DNA of 47,449 nucleotides from assembly GCA_903866255.1 (NCBI GenBank), contig CAIPMW010000095.1:1-47449 (forward strand). Direction: 5' to 3'. Source of the stretch: an uncultured Chlorobiaceae bacterium. Lineage in GTDB: Bacteria > Bacteroidota > Chlorobiia > Chlorobiales > Chlorobiaceae. How positions within the stretch are numbered: position 1 is the stretch's first letter; each line of letters begins with the position of its first letter. Both the position numbers and the translations under genes were made by a program. Under the pieces are notes generated by a model. The model was not told where the DNA came from and searched no databases. It saw nothing but the letters and a program-made list of their open reading frames with translations. Below, in pieces: positions 1 to 5,405 of the stretch.

Positions 1-36
1 TCACAAGCCGAAACAAGCAGGTCAATCAGTCAAACC

Positions 37-2958
37 ATGAAAGAAGCTCAAGTTGAAGAAGCTATGCGGCCAGGCATTGCCGAAAAGAATGCTTATCGGT
101 CAGGAGAAGCTGTGGTGCTAAAGGCCAAGCCCTCGAAACCTCAAGTCAATATATTTGTCTCTTATGCACACGAGGATATAATGCATAAAGAAGGGTTTGT
201 CAAGTTGCTCGCAAATGCTTTGGGAAATGGGGATTATGAATATTCATTTATTGGTGATGAAGCAATTCCGATCGGGGAGGAATGGCACGACTGGCTTCAG
301 GAACATTTGACACATTGTGATTTTGGGCTGCTGTTGCTTTCAACAAGCTTTACGGCCAGTGTGTATATCAAGGAATCTGAACTACCGCTTCTTCGTGAAA
401 AGTGTTTTCCTGTTGCGTTGAGACCTCTTAACCTGCAAAGTGCTTCATTGAAAGCTCTTGCACAAAAGCAGATATTTTTTTCCAAAACAGGAAAATCATT
501 TCTCGAATTGAAAGGAGTTGCTCAGAAGGATCACTTTCTCAATGATCTTGCTCGAAAAATTGAGGACCGAGTAAAGAAGCTGTTCGAAGCTGGCAAGAGT
601 ATCGTGTCTGGTGATGATCAGTCGCTTGCCGATGTTGCTGGAGTCATCGCGCGAAAAGCTGCTGAAACAGAATGGCGTGAATGTGCTCCTGAGTCGATAG
701 ATGGTATGACGCTGGATATATATCAGAAAACATACCATCACGATAGTTATGTAGTTCCGACAGGTCGTACCGGACACATCAGTCGCATTCCTGATACTTC
801 TGACCGGCGTGATACGGTAAACGCAATAGACTATATCAAAAGCTGGGCGCTTGAGTCTGATGTGCCATTTTTTGCACTTCTTGGTGACTTTGGTACCGGC
901 AAAACCTTTACCTGTCGGATGCTTGCGCGGCAGATCAATGCTTTGCATTATGACAAGCCTGAGCGCTATCCGCTCTGCATCTATATTGATATGCGGCTGG
1001 TGGCAACCCGTATTGGCCCTGAAAAGAGGATACCGAAATTGCTCAATATCCTCGAAGATGCCATTGCGAACACAAAAGATCCGCTCAATAAAAAGGAGGT
1101 AAAGCCTGAGCATATTATCCAGTTAGTGCGTGAGAACAGGGCAATGATTGTTTATGACGGTCTTGATGAAAAGACGGTTCATTTTACGCAGGAGGAGACC
1201 AACCAGTTTATTGCCGAGCTCTGGAGTATCAGGGAGATCAGGGACAAAGATGATACAAGAGAGCAGGGGAAGGTTCTGATCAGTTGCCGTACCCATTACT
1301 TCAGGGATATCTTTGAACAGAACAGACTGTTTCTTGGCCGCGACCGGGAGGGACGATCATCGTCAGAGTACCGATCCTGCACCTTGCTGCCATTTGGCGA
1401 CAATCAGATCAGGGAGTATCTGAAAAAGCGGCTTGGCAGCAGCGATGCAGAGATTGAACGAATCGTCGGGCTGTTTGAGCAAGTGCATAACCTGAAAGAG
1501 CTTGCCGGAAGACCATACACCCTCTCACTGATAACGGAGTTTATCCCCGACCTTGAAAAACTGCAAGAGGAGGGAAAGCCCATCAATACAGCACGTCTCT
1601 ATGATTTAACGGTTCAGAATACTCTCCAGCGTGATGGCGGAAAGCACGAGTTCAGTTTCGATCATAAACGGAGACTGATGAAAGCGCTTGCTCTGGAGAT
1701 ACATCGCAGAAAAGGCGCGGGCATGAAGGCAGAGATGCTTGAGGAGTGGCTCGACACCTGGCTCTATGAACATCCCGTCATCAAGGATGCCTACAGCAAC
1801 ATGAATCGTGAAACACTGAAAAAAGATCTTCGCACCGCCACCTTTATTATCCGGGAGCAGGAGAAGGAGTTTTCTTTTGCCCACACCTCCCTGCAGGAGT
1901 ATTTCTTGGCAGGCCATATTGTTGATGCCTTGGCCTTACCACCAGGGGAAATGGGGGTGCTTGCCATGGCCATGCCTTCGATCGAGACGCTGAATTTTGC
2001 TGTTGAGATGCTTGCTTTTGATAATGTGTTGCTGGAGAGTGCTCTCAGGAGTATTGAGGCTGTTCTTGAACATGCTTACCGGAAAGAGGCATCGGAACTT
2101 GCTTTGGCCCTTTGGCAGAAGCTTCTTGAGCACGGGATGAAGCTGCCCAATCCCGGAGTGGTGCATCTTGAGGATGCAGAGCTCTCAGGTTTGAAAATCA
2201 GAAATCTCGTGTTTCGCAATGGTTGTTTTGACAGGGCCAAGCTTCGAGGAACGCAGTTTGAGCATGTAAAGCTTGTTTCATCGTCGTTTAGAAAAGCCTG
2301 TTTGATCAATGCTGAATTTCTCTCTTGCCAGGTTAGTGGTGGCGATTTTTCCATGTCGGAAGCTGTCGGAAGTATCTGGCGGAACAGCAATCTACAGAAG
2401 AGCCTGTGGGATGGAGCACATCTCCGCCTTGCCTCTTTTGTTGGATGTGATCTTTCTATGAGCAGCAACTTTGGGGACATTAGTGAAACAGCATTTGCCC
2501 ACTGTACTGGTCAGGTAAACACGTTGTTGCCTGTTGCATTTCATCTTGATATTTTTACCGACCACTTGCATTCTATCTTGTCGTGCGCGATAAGTCCCGA
2601 TGGAAATTCGGTTGTGTCTGGCTCTGATGATAATACCCTGAAGGTGTGGGATGTCGCGTCAGGCACCTGCCTGATGACGCTGAGCGGCCATTCGGGTTCT
2701 GTCTTGTCGTGCGCGATAAGTCCCGATGGAAAATCGGTTGTGTCTGGCTCTTCAGATAAGACACTGAAGGTGTGGGATGTCGCTTCAGGCACCTGCCTGA
2801 TGACCATGGCAAACCTGCCGCATAATGAGACTGCGGCCTGGGATGGAGCGGCGCAAAAACTGCTCTCATCCTCCGAAGGTTCATGGCGCTGGATTGGTAT
2901 AAGTGCAGGAACCAGGCGCCTGCCCATTGAACTTCTGAACCCTGAATCGGCAACCTGA
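37..2958 (+). CDS. TIR-NACHT-pentapeptide-WD40 NLR-like protein (5' end may lie outside window)
   Basis: This is a large multidomain STAND-type protein. Residues about 36-170 look like a TIR domain (VNIFVSYAHED at the start, a later ESEL segment). A NACHT-type NTPase follows, with Walker A GDFGTGKT at residues 283-290 and Walker B-like AMIVYDGLDE at 369-378. Residues about 705-830 resemble pentapeptide repeats (alternating A-x-L/F layers), and two WD40 units lie at about 848-930. Proteins joining TIR to NACHT with a repeat sensor are known in bacterial antiphage immunity, where ligand sensing activates the TIR domain, often as an NADase; that role is inferred here. No stop interrupts the frame between base 1 and the ATG at 37, and no clear ribosome site precedes that ATG, so the true start may be upstream of the window. 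Two WD40 units are too few for a normal propeller. Confidence 0.85.
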   Translation: MKEAQVEEAMRPGIAEKNAYRSGEAVVLKAKPSKPQVNIFVSYAHEDIMHKEGFVKLLANALGNGDYEYSFIGDEAIPIGEEWHDWLQEHLTHCDFGLLLLSTSFTASVYIKESELPLLREKCFPVALRPLNLQSASLKALAQKQIFFSKTGKSFLELKGVAQKDHFLNDLARKIEDRVKKLFEAGKSIVSGDDQSLADVAGVIARKAAETEWRECAPESIDGMTLDIYQKTYHHDSYVVPTGRTGHISRIPDTSDRRDTVNAIDYIKSWALESDVPFFALLGDFGTGKTFTCRMLARQINALHYDKPERYPLCIYIDMRLVATRIGPEKRIPKLLNILEDAIANTKDPLNKKEVKPEHIIQLVRENRAMIVYDGLDEKTVHFTQEETNQFIAELWSIREIRDKDDTREQGKVLISCRTHYFRDIFEQNRLFLGRDREGRSSSEYRSCTLLPFGDNQIREYLKKRLGSSDAEIERIVGLFEQVHNLKELAGRPYTLSLITEFIPDLEKLQEEGKPINTARLYDLTVQNTLQRDGGKHEFSFDHKRRLMKALALEIHRRKGAGMKAEMLEEWLDTWLYEHPVIKDAYSNMNRETLKKDLRTATFIIREQEKEFSFAHTSLQEYFLAGHIVDALALPPGEMGVLAMAMPSIETLNFAVEMLAFDNVLLESALRSIEAVLEHAYRKEASELALALWQKLLEHGMKLPNPGVVHLEDAELSGLKIRNLVFRNGCFDRAKLRGTQFEHVKLVSSSFRKACLINAEFLSCQVSGGDFSMSEAVGSIWRNSNLQKSLWDGAHLRLASFVGCDLSMSSNFGDISETAFAHCTGQVNTLLPVAFHLDIFTDHLHSILSCAISPDGNSVVSGSDDNTLKVWDVASGTCLMTLSGHSGSVLSCAISPDGKSVVSGSSDKTLKVWDVASGTCLMTMANLPHNETAAWDGAAQKLLSSSEGSWRWIGISAGTRRLPIELLNPESAT
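2577..2805 (+). repeat. 126-bp tandem WD40-coding repeat, two copies
   Basis: Two copies of a 42-codon unit start at 2577 and 2703. Over roughly the first 100 bases they differ at only about 7 positions, including silent sites. The second copy loses similarity after about 2805. Such nucleotide identity points to recent unit duplication or gene conversion rather than old divergence. Confidence 0.85.
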
Positions 2959-3023: not shown

Positions 3024-5405
3024 ATGAACCCCACCACCCTCAAAAAGCTCGAATTCGACAAAGTCGCCCATTACGCCGCCCGGCTCTGCCTCTCGGCGAT
3101 GGGGCGCGACCAGCTTCTTGCAGCCGTCCCGCAAAGAGAGCGGCAGGCGCTTGTAACGGAGCTTGAGCGTCTGCTTGAGTTGCGCAATCTGCTTCAGGAG
3201 GGCATGGCGCATCCCTTCTCCTATCTGCCCGACACCCGTCCGCTGCTGAAAAAGCTGGAACTGCTGGGGAGCTACCTGGAGACGGAGGAGTTGCAGGATA
3301 TTTACCATCTCCTCTTTTCATCGGTGCAGTTGCGGAAGTTCATGGCGCTGAACCGCGAGGTCTATCCGCTGCTCAATGAGTTTACCCGGCAGATCTGGCT
3401 TGAGAGCGCTCTTCAGGCGGGGATTCGCCGGATTATTGATGAGCAGGGGAGGGTGCGCGATACGGCGAGTGATGCGCTTCTGATGATTCGGGGAGAGTTG
3501 CTGAGCAGTCGTGAACTGATTCGCCGGAGAATGGAGCGGCTGCTTCGCCGCTCCCAGGAGAGTGGCTGGCTGATGGAGGAGAGGGTTGCGGTCAAGAATG
3601 GCCGTCTCACGCTTGGCTTGAAGGTGGAGTACAAGTACAAGATTGCCGGGTATATCCAGGATTACTCCGGCTCGGGGCAGACGGTCTTTATTGAGCCCGC
3701 GGAGACGCTGGAGATCAGTAACCGCATTCAGGATTTGGAGATCAGCGAGCGGCGGGAGATTGAGCGCATTCTGAAGGCGATGACGGAGGAGATTCGGCTT
3801 GAGCTGGGCAATCTTTGTCACAATGAGGCGCTGTTGGCGGCCTTTGATGCCCTCTATGGACGGGCGCGGTTTGCGGTTGAAACTCATGCGGTGCTGCCAT
3901 CCATTACGGAAGGGCAGGCGCTTCGCATTGTGAAGGGGTACCATCCCTGGCTGCTGATTTCGCATCGTCAAAAGGAGGTGCAGCCTCTTGAGCTGATTCT
4001 GGATGAGGAGGAGCGGGTGCTGGTGATCTCGGGCCCCAACGCTGGCGGAAAGTCGGTGGCGATGAAGAGCGCCGGGCTCCTCTGCTGTATGCTGGTTCAC
4101 GGCTATCTGCTCCCTTGCAGCGAGAGCTCGGTGTTCCCTCTTTTCCGCGATATTTTTATCGAAATTGGCGATGACCAGTCGATTGAAAATGATCTCTCCA
4201 CCTTCAGCTCCCATCTTGGCGCTATAAAGACAATTCTTGATGGCGCTGGCAGTCGCGATCTGGTGCTGATTGACGAACTTTGTGCTGGCACCGATGTGGA
4301 GGAGGGGGGAGCCATTGCCCGTGCGGTGATTGAGGAGCTGCTCAATCGCTCCACCAAGACCATTGTCACCACCCACCTTGGTGAATTGAAGGCCTATGCC
4401 CATGAGCGGGAGGGTGTGGTGAACGGCGCGATGGAGTTTGACCGGGCGGAGCTTCAGCCCACCTTCAGGTTTGTCAAGGGGCTACCTGGCAACAGTTTTG
4501 CCTTTGCCATGATGAAGCGGATGGGCTTTGCGGGGAAAATGGTTGAACGGGCCTCCTCCTTTATGCTGCATGAGCGCATCGGGCTCGACCGGATGCTTGA
4601 TGACCTGAGTCGCCTTTTTGAAGAGAACCGCATTGTGAAGCAGCAGCTTGAGGTAGAGAAGGCGGAGAGTGAGAAAAAAGCATTCGCACTGCAGCAGGCG
4701 GAGACGGCGTTTGAACAGAAGCGCCGGGCGCACAAGCTTGGAGCATCGCGGGAGCTGCAGAGGGAGCTGGAGCTGGCCCGACAGGAGATTCGCGAGATTC
4801 TGCAGGAGGTTAAAGCTGCTCCGGCCGACGATAAAAAGGTGCACGAGGCACGGAAAAAACTTGGCATCAAAATACAGCAGACCGAAAAGAGTGCATCGCT
4901 GCTGCGAGCCAGAGCTGAAGCTGCGGCCAAAGTTGATCGTACTATCCGTCCGGGCGACCTTGTCAGTATTCTCGATACCAATACCTCCGGTGAGGTTGAG
5001 AGCATTAACGGTGAGAGTGTGGTGGTGCTGTGCGGCAATTTCAGGTTGACCACGGCGCTGAAAAATCTTGAAAAGAGCTCAAAAACACAGGTGAAAAAGA
5101 GTCTGCGGCTGCCTGAACCGAGGCCGAAGAAAAGCTCCTGGTCGGCCATGACATCGGGTATTGAGTCAACTAAAATTGATGTGCGGGGGTTGACCGCTGA
5201 TGAGGCGACGCTGAAAATCGAGAGATTTCTTGACACCATGCGCCTGAACCGCATCTATGCAGCGATGATTCTGCATGGCAAGGGGACAGGATCGCTTCGC
5301 AAAAGAACAGCGGAGTGTTTGCAGCAGCATCCGGCGGTAAAGAGCTTTCGACTTGGCGAATGGGGTGAAGGTGGTGATGGGGTGACCTTTGTGGAGCTGG
5401 AGTGA
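3024..5405 (+). CDS. mutS2: MutS2 family endonuclease
   Basis: A 793-aa protein, the usual size for MutS2. The ABC-type ATPase domain carries Walker A GPNAGGKS at residues 337-344 and a signature region with LVLIDELCAGTD. A long coiled-coil-rich stretch follows at about 520-640. The C-terminus, from about residue 717, is an Smr nuclease domain with the IDVRG and HGKGTGSLR motifs. MutS2 lacks the mismatch-recognition domain of MutS. In other bacteria it has been linked to suppression of homologous recombination or to rescue of collided ribosomes, and the sequence does not say which applies here. The gene stands alone after the TIR-NACHT gene. The ATG at 3024 has no obvious Shine-Dalgarno sequence. 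Confidence 0.96.
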   Translation: MNPTTLKKLEFDKVAHYAARLCLSAMGRDQLLAAVPQRERQALVTELERLLELRNLLQEGMAHPFSYLPDTRPLLKKLELLGSYLETEELQDIYHLLFSSVQLRKFMALNREVYPLLNEFTRQIWLESALQAGIRRIIDEQGRVRDTASDALLMIRGELLSSRELIRRRMERLLRRSQESGWLMEERVAVKNGRLTLGLKVEYKYKIAGYIQDYSGSGQTVFIEPAETLEISNRIQDLEISERREIERILKAMTEEIRLELGNLCHNEALLAAFDALYGRARFAVETHAVLPSITEGQALRIVKGYHPWLLISHRQKEVQPLELILDEEERVLVISGPNAGGKSVAMKSAGLLCCMLVHGYLLPCSESSVFPLFRDIFIEIGDDQSIENDLSTFSSHLGAIKTILDGAGSRDLVLIDELCAGTDVEEGGAIARAVIEELLNRSTKTIVTTHLGELKAYAHEREGVVNGAMEFDRAELQPTFRFVKGLPGNSFAFAMMKRMGFAGKMVERASSFMLHERIGLDRMLDDLSRLFEENRIVKQQLEVEKAESEKKAFALQQAETAFEQKRRAHKLGASRELQRELELARQEIREILQEVKAAPADDKKVHEARKKLGIKIQQTEKSASLLRARAEAAAKVDRTIRPGDLVSILDTNTSGEVESINGESVVVLCGNFRLTTALKNLEKSSKTQVKKSLRLPEPRPKKSSWSAMTSGIESTKIDVRGLTADEATLKIERFLDTMRLNRIYAAMILHGKGTGSLRKRTAECLQQHPAVKSFRLGEWGEGGDGVTFVELE

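Follow-up and report, generated by a model that had tools for sequence, protein, structure and literature searches.

The window analysed here, a stretch of 47,449 nucleotides from an uncultured Chlorobiaceae bacterium, begins with a reading frame that resembles an NLR-type sensor, and the question arises whether this frame codes for a complete receptor or for a part of a damaged one. Frame 1 is open from 1 to 2955, ends with a stop codon at 2958 and codes for 985 residues, in which TIR, NACHT, pentapeptide and WD40 segments follow each other. The following features were assigned.

1-2958, plus strand: 3' part of a broken ATPase-TIR-NACHT-pentapeptide-WD40 gene; the left side is open, the ATG lies 6 nt upstream on contig C75
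1-3, plus strand: right-hand TCA copy (3-bp target repeat) of a 123-bp MITE that adjoins the window on its left side (L003, minus strand)
139-588, plus strand: TIR domain, residues 47-196; the invariant Glu127 (nt 379-381) aligns with the W-x-x-x-E-L Glu of AbTIR
733-1920, plus strand: NACHT/STAND NTPase and helical region; Walker A at 883-906, Walker B at 1156-1173
2143-2475, plus strand: pentapeptide-repeat beta-helix, residues 715-825, pLDDT mostly >90
2560-2685, plus strand: WD40 repeat 1, 126-bp unit
2686-2811, plus strand: WD40 repeat 2, 126-bp unit
2812-2955, plus strand: C-terminal tail, a degenerate last blade (NLPHNETAAWD...WRWIG...RRLPIELL) common to full-length relatives

The order of these domains in one chain, as claimed in a preliminary description made from the DNA sequence, is confirmed by the open frame, by Pfam and by an AlphaFold model. 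Pfam TIR_2 matches residues 51-141 (E 2.6e-9) and Pentapeptide_4 matches with an E-value of 2.3e-11; the NTPase is matched by AAA_22 (E 2.5e-6) and by NACHT, the latter with about 1e-3 to 1.1e-3 and thus below the curated cut-off. The Walker A motif GDFGTGKT (residues 295-302) and the Walker B motif DGLDE (386-390) are invariant across the family. The AlphaFold model, which is based on an alignment of 25 sequences and has a mean pLDDT of 73, contains the TIR-like order of strands and helices at residues 48-139, in agreement with the TIR fold formerly proposed for residues 36-170. It further contains an NTPase with helical domains, a high-confidence pentapeptide beta-helix (residues 720-815), and a WD40 part of eight strands, that is two blades. 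TRF likewise detects two units of 126 bp (2571-2804, 92% matches). By this model, the two blades are too few to close a propeller alone. In a Foldseek comparison of the window model with the PDB, NOD2 and Apaf-1 rank first, and a second structure aligner matches NAIP/NLRC4 over 400 residues. The likeness to Apaf-1 and the NLRs (NOD2, NAIP-NLRC4) concerns the overall fold of the NTPase and the helical region, and Apaf-1 too ends in two WD40 propellers; in contrast, the family studied here is bacterial, has a TIR effector, and contains a pentapeptide helix between NTPase and WD40.

The left side of the gene was found on contig C75 of the same genome, as C75:1-141, read as its reverse complement, and window positions 1-141 agree in every base. 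This extension, recommended earlier as a check, revealed the start and a broken ATPase half. The first in-frame ATG is located 6 nt beyond the left edge of the window, within the right end of an inserted element, and not at position 37 as originally assumed; from there, the frame (MESQAETSRS...) comprises 987 codons. Further left, an in-frame TGA is carried by the element, and beyond it the same frame codes for an ATPase_2 protein that is itself broken by a TAG. In relatives, the ATPase_2 domain (PF01637, E 1.5e-12) precedes the TIR domain in one frame. In the closest relative (G014/L062; 85-86% identity), which occupies the same place before mutS2, both halves form one uninterrupted frame, MTNPFYLRVLPIDAPFCGREKEF ... 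NSGMFPPVRSLSQAETSRS .... At the stop site, G014 has GAG and the window genome TAG; at the junction, G014 reads CGCAGTTTGTCACAAGCC and the window genome CGCAGTGTGTCA[123 bp]TCACAAGCC. The expectation that more domains lie upstream therefore holds for the relatives, whereas in the window genome the ATPase_2 domain is cut off by the TAG and the TGA-bearing element. The notion that TIR-NACHT represents the whole protein is ruled out, since the linker before TIR runs on into ATPase_2 in relatives.

The inserted element has a length of 123 bp and inverted ends of 9 bp, TTCCATTTC...GAAATGGAA; the 3-bp target site TCA is repeated on both sides of it. The genome contains three further copies of exactly 123 bp (L057, L058, L059), whose ends match and whose junctions are clear; in two of the three, the 3-bp repeats on both sides match and follow the pattern TNA. 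A 1.1-kb copy on contig C25 (L061:1500-2604) is bordered by similar ends and contains two frames, which judged by eye resemble an IS630-type transposase; the 123-bp MITE family is apparently derived from this larger element. The MITE ends exactly at the window edge and the window contig begins with the first base after it, which explains the contig edge. A part of the sampled population may lack the MITE; the assembly contains no contig without it at this locus.

A scan of genome contigs yielded 27 relatives, whose architectures were called with family HMMs built in this analysis. An ATPase-TIR-NACHT-pentapeptide arrangement in one frame is present in L062, L064-L068, L073, L075, L076 and L077, and also in the 5'-truncated L063 and L074. 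L076 stems from a Nitrospinota MAG (50% identity) and L077 from a Desulfobacteraceae MAG (36%); the remaining one-frame members with an ATPase include Chlorobiaceae MAGs. Contig C75 and about a dozen close relatives indicate that the intact protein is longer than the window frame; judged from these sequences, it is ATPase_2 - TIR - NACHT - pentapeptide - WD40xN, with N = 14 where the arrays can be read end to end. No prior description of this architecture in Chlorobi was found in the openly accessible literature. The Chlorobaculum members L069-L071 begin at the linker before TIR, and the ATPase had no match in any frame of their fetched flanks. In a tree of the NACHT region, this clade is nested beside an ATPase-bearing member with a support of 0.98, which argues that its ATPase was lost. 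More distant members from Planctomycetota and Kuenenia retain TIR-NACHT. One further member (L072:7941-10700) is decayed: its ATPase is gone save for about 43 residues, a stop codon lies in the linker before WD40, and one unit plus the tail is left. Going by its lesions, this decay is parallel to, and independent of, that of the window copy.

Housekeeping conservation across all relatives, which the preliminary description would have taken as evidence against its reading, was not observed. A full-length member is present in 8 of 37 genomes of the window's genus (two in G027), and the others have mostly weak partial matches; the family is therefore not a housekeeping one. A phage- or plasmid-borne family is unsupported: no relatives were found in viral contigs, and the NACHT regions of plasmids, mostly cyanobacterial, are only 20-25% identical.

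The TIR domain is the putative effector. Glu127 is conserved without exception in the 17 TIRs compared, which stem from several phyla. The family TIR profile matches AbTIR and related bacterial TIR NADases (8g83, 7uwg, 3h16) and aligns this residue with the W-x-x-x-E-L Glu of AbTIR and PdTIR at the start of helix alpha-C, although the spacing from the aromatic position to Glu127 is longer by one residue. The aligned Glu is presumably the catalytic one in AbTIR. Membership in Thoeris can be ruled out: ThsB is a weak match to the window TIR (1.6e-4), nothing beyond this match was found, and no ThsA partner lies next to the gene. Among the hallmarks of NLR-type STAND proteins, an NTPase with Walker A and B motifs and an N-terminal effector (TIR) are present; the C-terminal repeat sensor has up to 14 WD40 blades in relatives and two in the window copy. 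A comparison with Avs/bNACHT catalogues, also suggested earlier, was carried out with PADLOC 2023, which may lack bNACHT models, and with NCBIfam; it gave weak or partial matches, and no model of such a system scored meaningfully. On sequence grounds, the family is best read as a candidate NLR-like immune sensor.

The WD40 unit comprises 42 residues. Arrays read end to end contain 14 units in L073, L074 and L084, and 13 in L083; the ATPase-less L070 has 13 units plus one irregular spacing (about 14), and L071 has at least nine. Adjacent units are homogenised and reach 95-98% DNA identity in L066, L067, L070, L073 and L075. In a structure search with the L073 array, 2ymu ("Structure of a highly repetitive propeller structure") was the top match (E 2.5e-56, 54% identity over 577 columns); we take 2ymu to be WRAP. 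The 14 blades may, by analogy, form two seven-bladed propellers; since the AlphaFold model of the 14-blade L073 array has a low overall confidence (pTM 0.48), this 2x7 arrangement is drawn from the analogy rather than from the model. In the window copy, two units are followed by the conserved tail, a pattern expected from the in-frame loss of units between repeats. The former assignment of a WD40 sensor is thus correct as to the presence of WD40, but merely two repeats and a degenerate last blade remain, and a complete sensor in the window is ruled out.

In the fungal proteins HET-D and HET-E, the variable WD40 codons are 7, 9, 25 and 27, which flank the conserved codons 8 and 26 (PMC1805685). 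In the unit register used here, with V at 13 and D at 31, they correspond to 12, 14, 30 and 32. The three most variable positions of L073 are 14, 30 and 12. At the four codons, pN/pS is 1.67 in L073, 2.06 in L075, 1.59 in L084, 1.29 in L083, 1.24 in L070 and 3.78 in L081, compared to 0.21-0.38 for the rest of the repeat in the same six arrays, each of which contributed 4 to 13 units to the comparison. Among all sets of four codons, a fraction of just 2e-5 to 3e-3 attains the observed pN. Lower four-codon values of 0.7-0.9 were determined for L074, L065, L071 and L077; L074 and L065, which belong to the window's side of the family tree, have 0.85-0.88. Ordinary WD40 proteins of the same genome, which served as a control, also vary most at these positions (pN/pS 0.8-1.1, about 0.5 for the rest), so that the variability of the hot spots is partly a general WD40 property. 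The codon pattern would fit a diversifying selection that acts on the propeller face but falls short of proof, and repeat exchange breaks the assumptions of a simple pN/pS. As a separate observation, contig C71 codes for a 1575-aa protein (L089:1165-5889, plus strand) with an N-terminus that looks kinase-like by eye and many WD40 repeats of low mutual identity.

What is the state of the window copy? Compared to G014, dN/dS is 0.116 for the ATPase half (0.14 before the stop, 0.09 after it), 0.17 for TIR, 0.12 for NACHT and 0.21 for pentapeptide; a relaxed constraint in the damaged ATPase half was looked for by this comparison and gave no signal. As there is no sign of a long relaxation, either the damage arose recently or the gene kept its function until a short time ago. 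The dS values are 0.09 for TIR (136-588), 0.47 for NACHT and 0.76 for pentapeptide (733-2520 for the two together), and this spread points to a mosaic recombination of domain blocks between alleles. The window probably contains the 3' part of a gene that belongs to an NLR-type sensor family and was damaged recently. Its copy is most likely a recently inactivated allele, and the sensing function of the gene has probably been lost through the stop codon, the MITE and the reduction to two blades. The original reading as a candidate NLR can be upheld for the family, with its TIR, its NLR-like NACHT, its repeat sensor with signs of diversifying selection and its patchy distribution, but not for the window copy, which lacks the ATPase and has two blades.

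It is rather improbable that the window copy is a working shortened receptor, in which TIR-NACHT-pentapeptide is translated from the ATG of the element or from position 37, with no ATPase and a minimal WD40 tail. The 985-codon frame is intact, the low dN/dS values of TIR and NACHT given above would suit such a protein, and the natural start of the Chlorobaculum members L069-L071, which have no ATPase, lies at the same linker. However, according to the model two blades do not close a propeller alone, the ATPase-less L070 and L071 retain their long arrays, and no clear ribosome-binding site precedes either ATG by eye. In addition, L072, the other member with a collapsed array, also has a stop codon and no ATPase.

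A somewhat poorer case can be made for artefacts of assembly or strain mixing, with an intact gene and a long array in the real cell. Short-read assembly of such arrays is known from fungal NLRs to fail or to be unreliable (PMC12222747). Among the 14 WD40-bearing close relatives (L062-L071 and L073-L076), the contig breaks off within the array in ten cases and has an N gap at this site in one, and the start of the window contig exactly at the edge of the element hints at a different left neighbour in the reads. This explanation is at odds with the window contig itself, which crosses the array unbroken into mutS2, and with the 141-bp overlap, which suggests long k-mers above the 126-bp unit. 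Moreover, the MITE occurs in three other 123-bp copies whose ends agree and whose junctions are clear, and the TAG sits in the interior of C75. Independently of the window copy, the array is broken off or gapped in 11 of the 14 close relatives; short-read databases thus systematically cut these receptors short, and bacterial NLR catalogues therefore underestimate the sensors.

Least probable is a STAND signalling protein without an immune role, serving for example recognition in cell aggregates or regulation. In line with it, the gene stands alone between housekeeping genes in several genomes, and comparable fungal proteins serve in self/non-self recognition (PMC1805685), but the invariant TIR Glu at the catalytic position, the patchy distribution, the recurrent decay and some defence neighbours fit conflict systems better.

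If the family is read as NLR-type sensors, the propeller face of intact members would bind a variable ligand, probably a phage or another non-self protein. Binding would free the NACHT domain to exchange its nucleotide and to oligomerise, and the clustered TIR domains would then consume or convert NAD+ and thereby halt growth or kill the cell. The ATPase would be an accessory regulatory module, because some members lack it. The sensor would diversify via unequal exchange between repeats combined with selection at few surface codons. The sequences themselves show the architecture, the lesions, the homogenisation of the repeats and the hot-spot codons; ligand, oligomerisation, NADase activity and defence are what we infer for the intact members.

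The closest precedent of the Chlorobi family is the cyanobacterial WRAP. In Nostoc, 14 amplified WD40 blades form two seven-bladed propellers on a STAND protein (Dunin-Horkawicz et al. 2014, in PMC9218822). According to the same summary, this WRAP-STAND gene is coupled to a TIR-STAND gene, copies are frequently disrupted by stops and frameshifts, and an immune role has been suggested. The likeness comprises the near-identical amplified blades (14 in relatives), the tie between STAND and TIR, and the frequent disruption; the top rank of 2ymu adds a structural match. In contrast to the two coupled Nostoc genes, the Chlorobi family combines ATPase_2, TIR, NACHT, pentapeptide and WD40 in one chain, and the description of WRAP consulted mentions neither an N-terminal ATPase_2 nor a pentapeptide domain. 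The fungal HNWD/NWD proteins (HET-D and HET-E of Podospora) share NACHT and tandem 42-residue WD40 repeats of high internal identity, the change in length by repeat exchange, and the strongest variation at the same propeller-face positions. They differ in possessing a HET effector instead of TIR and in having neither ATPase_2 nor pentapeptide; the likeness is given without a claim of shared repeat ancestry. The order of effector, STAND NTPase and repeat sensor is that of the antiphage bNACHT/Avs proteins (PMC10907252) and is also found in the Chlorobi family, whose TIR, however, is preceded by a second NTPase.

We tentatively suggest, as a possible though doubtful generalisation, that green sulfur bacteria and a few distant phyla possess a one-chain TIR receptor with two NTPases, in which repeat exchange and selection at the HET-D/HET-E codons diversify a WD40 face of 14 blades. 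It would constitute an independent bacterial system for a recognition repertoire, from which collapsed alleles such as that of the window are discarded. If this is right, the culturable Chlorobaculum sp. 24CR, which has a member, would allow the gain and loss of blades in an NLR array to be watched, and also a test of what the diversified propeller face binds. The message of the window itself is modest: it holds a decayed allele rather than a new functional receptor.

Most members are located among housekeeping genes, several of them alone, and outside defence islands. Defence neighbours were identified for L075 (AbiEi/AbiEii and a Fic protein), L077 (type I restriction R subunit, YhcG, RhuM), L070 (type II methyltransferase) and L072 (TIR-FGE protein); such gene contexts lend moderate support to a defence role. 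At the window locus, the complete mutS2 (3024-5405) lies downstream of the NLR gene, and a partial second copy on contig C75 (L003:5435-6163, minus strand; residues 40-281, 96% identical to the complete mutS2) lies upstream in the same orientation. These direct repeats flank an island that contains the NLR gene and, by eye, radical-SAM, glycosyltransferase and FkbM-like genes. Near the member of Chlorobaculum sp. 24CR, a 501-aa protein (L069:3843-5345, plus strand) had no Pfam or PADLOC match at E 1e-5. A second NLR-like protein of the window genome is encoded on contig C45 (L090:2673-8555, plus strand), where a 1961-aa frame has a MinD/ParA-like start and a NACHT region with 26% identity, and its last part looks like FGE-sulfatase by eye.
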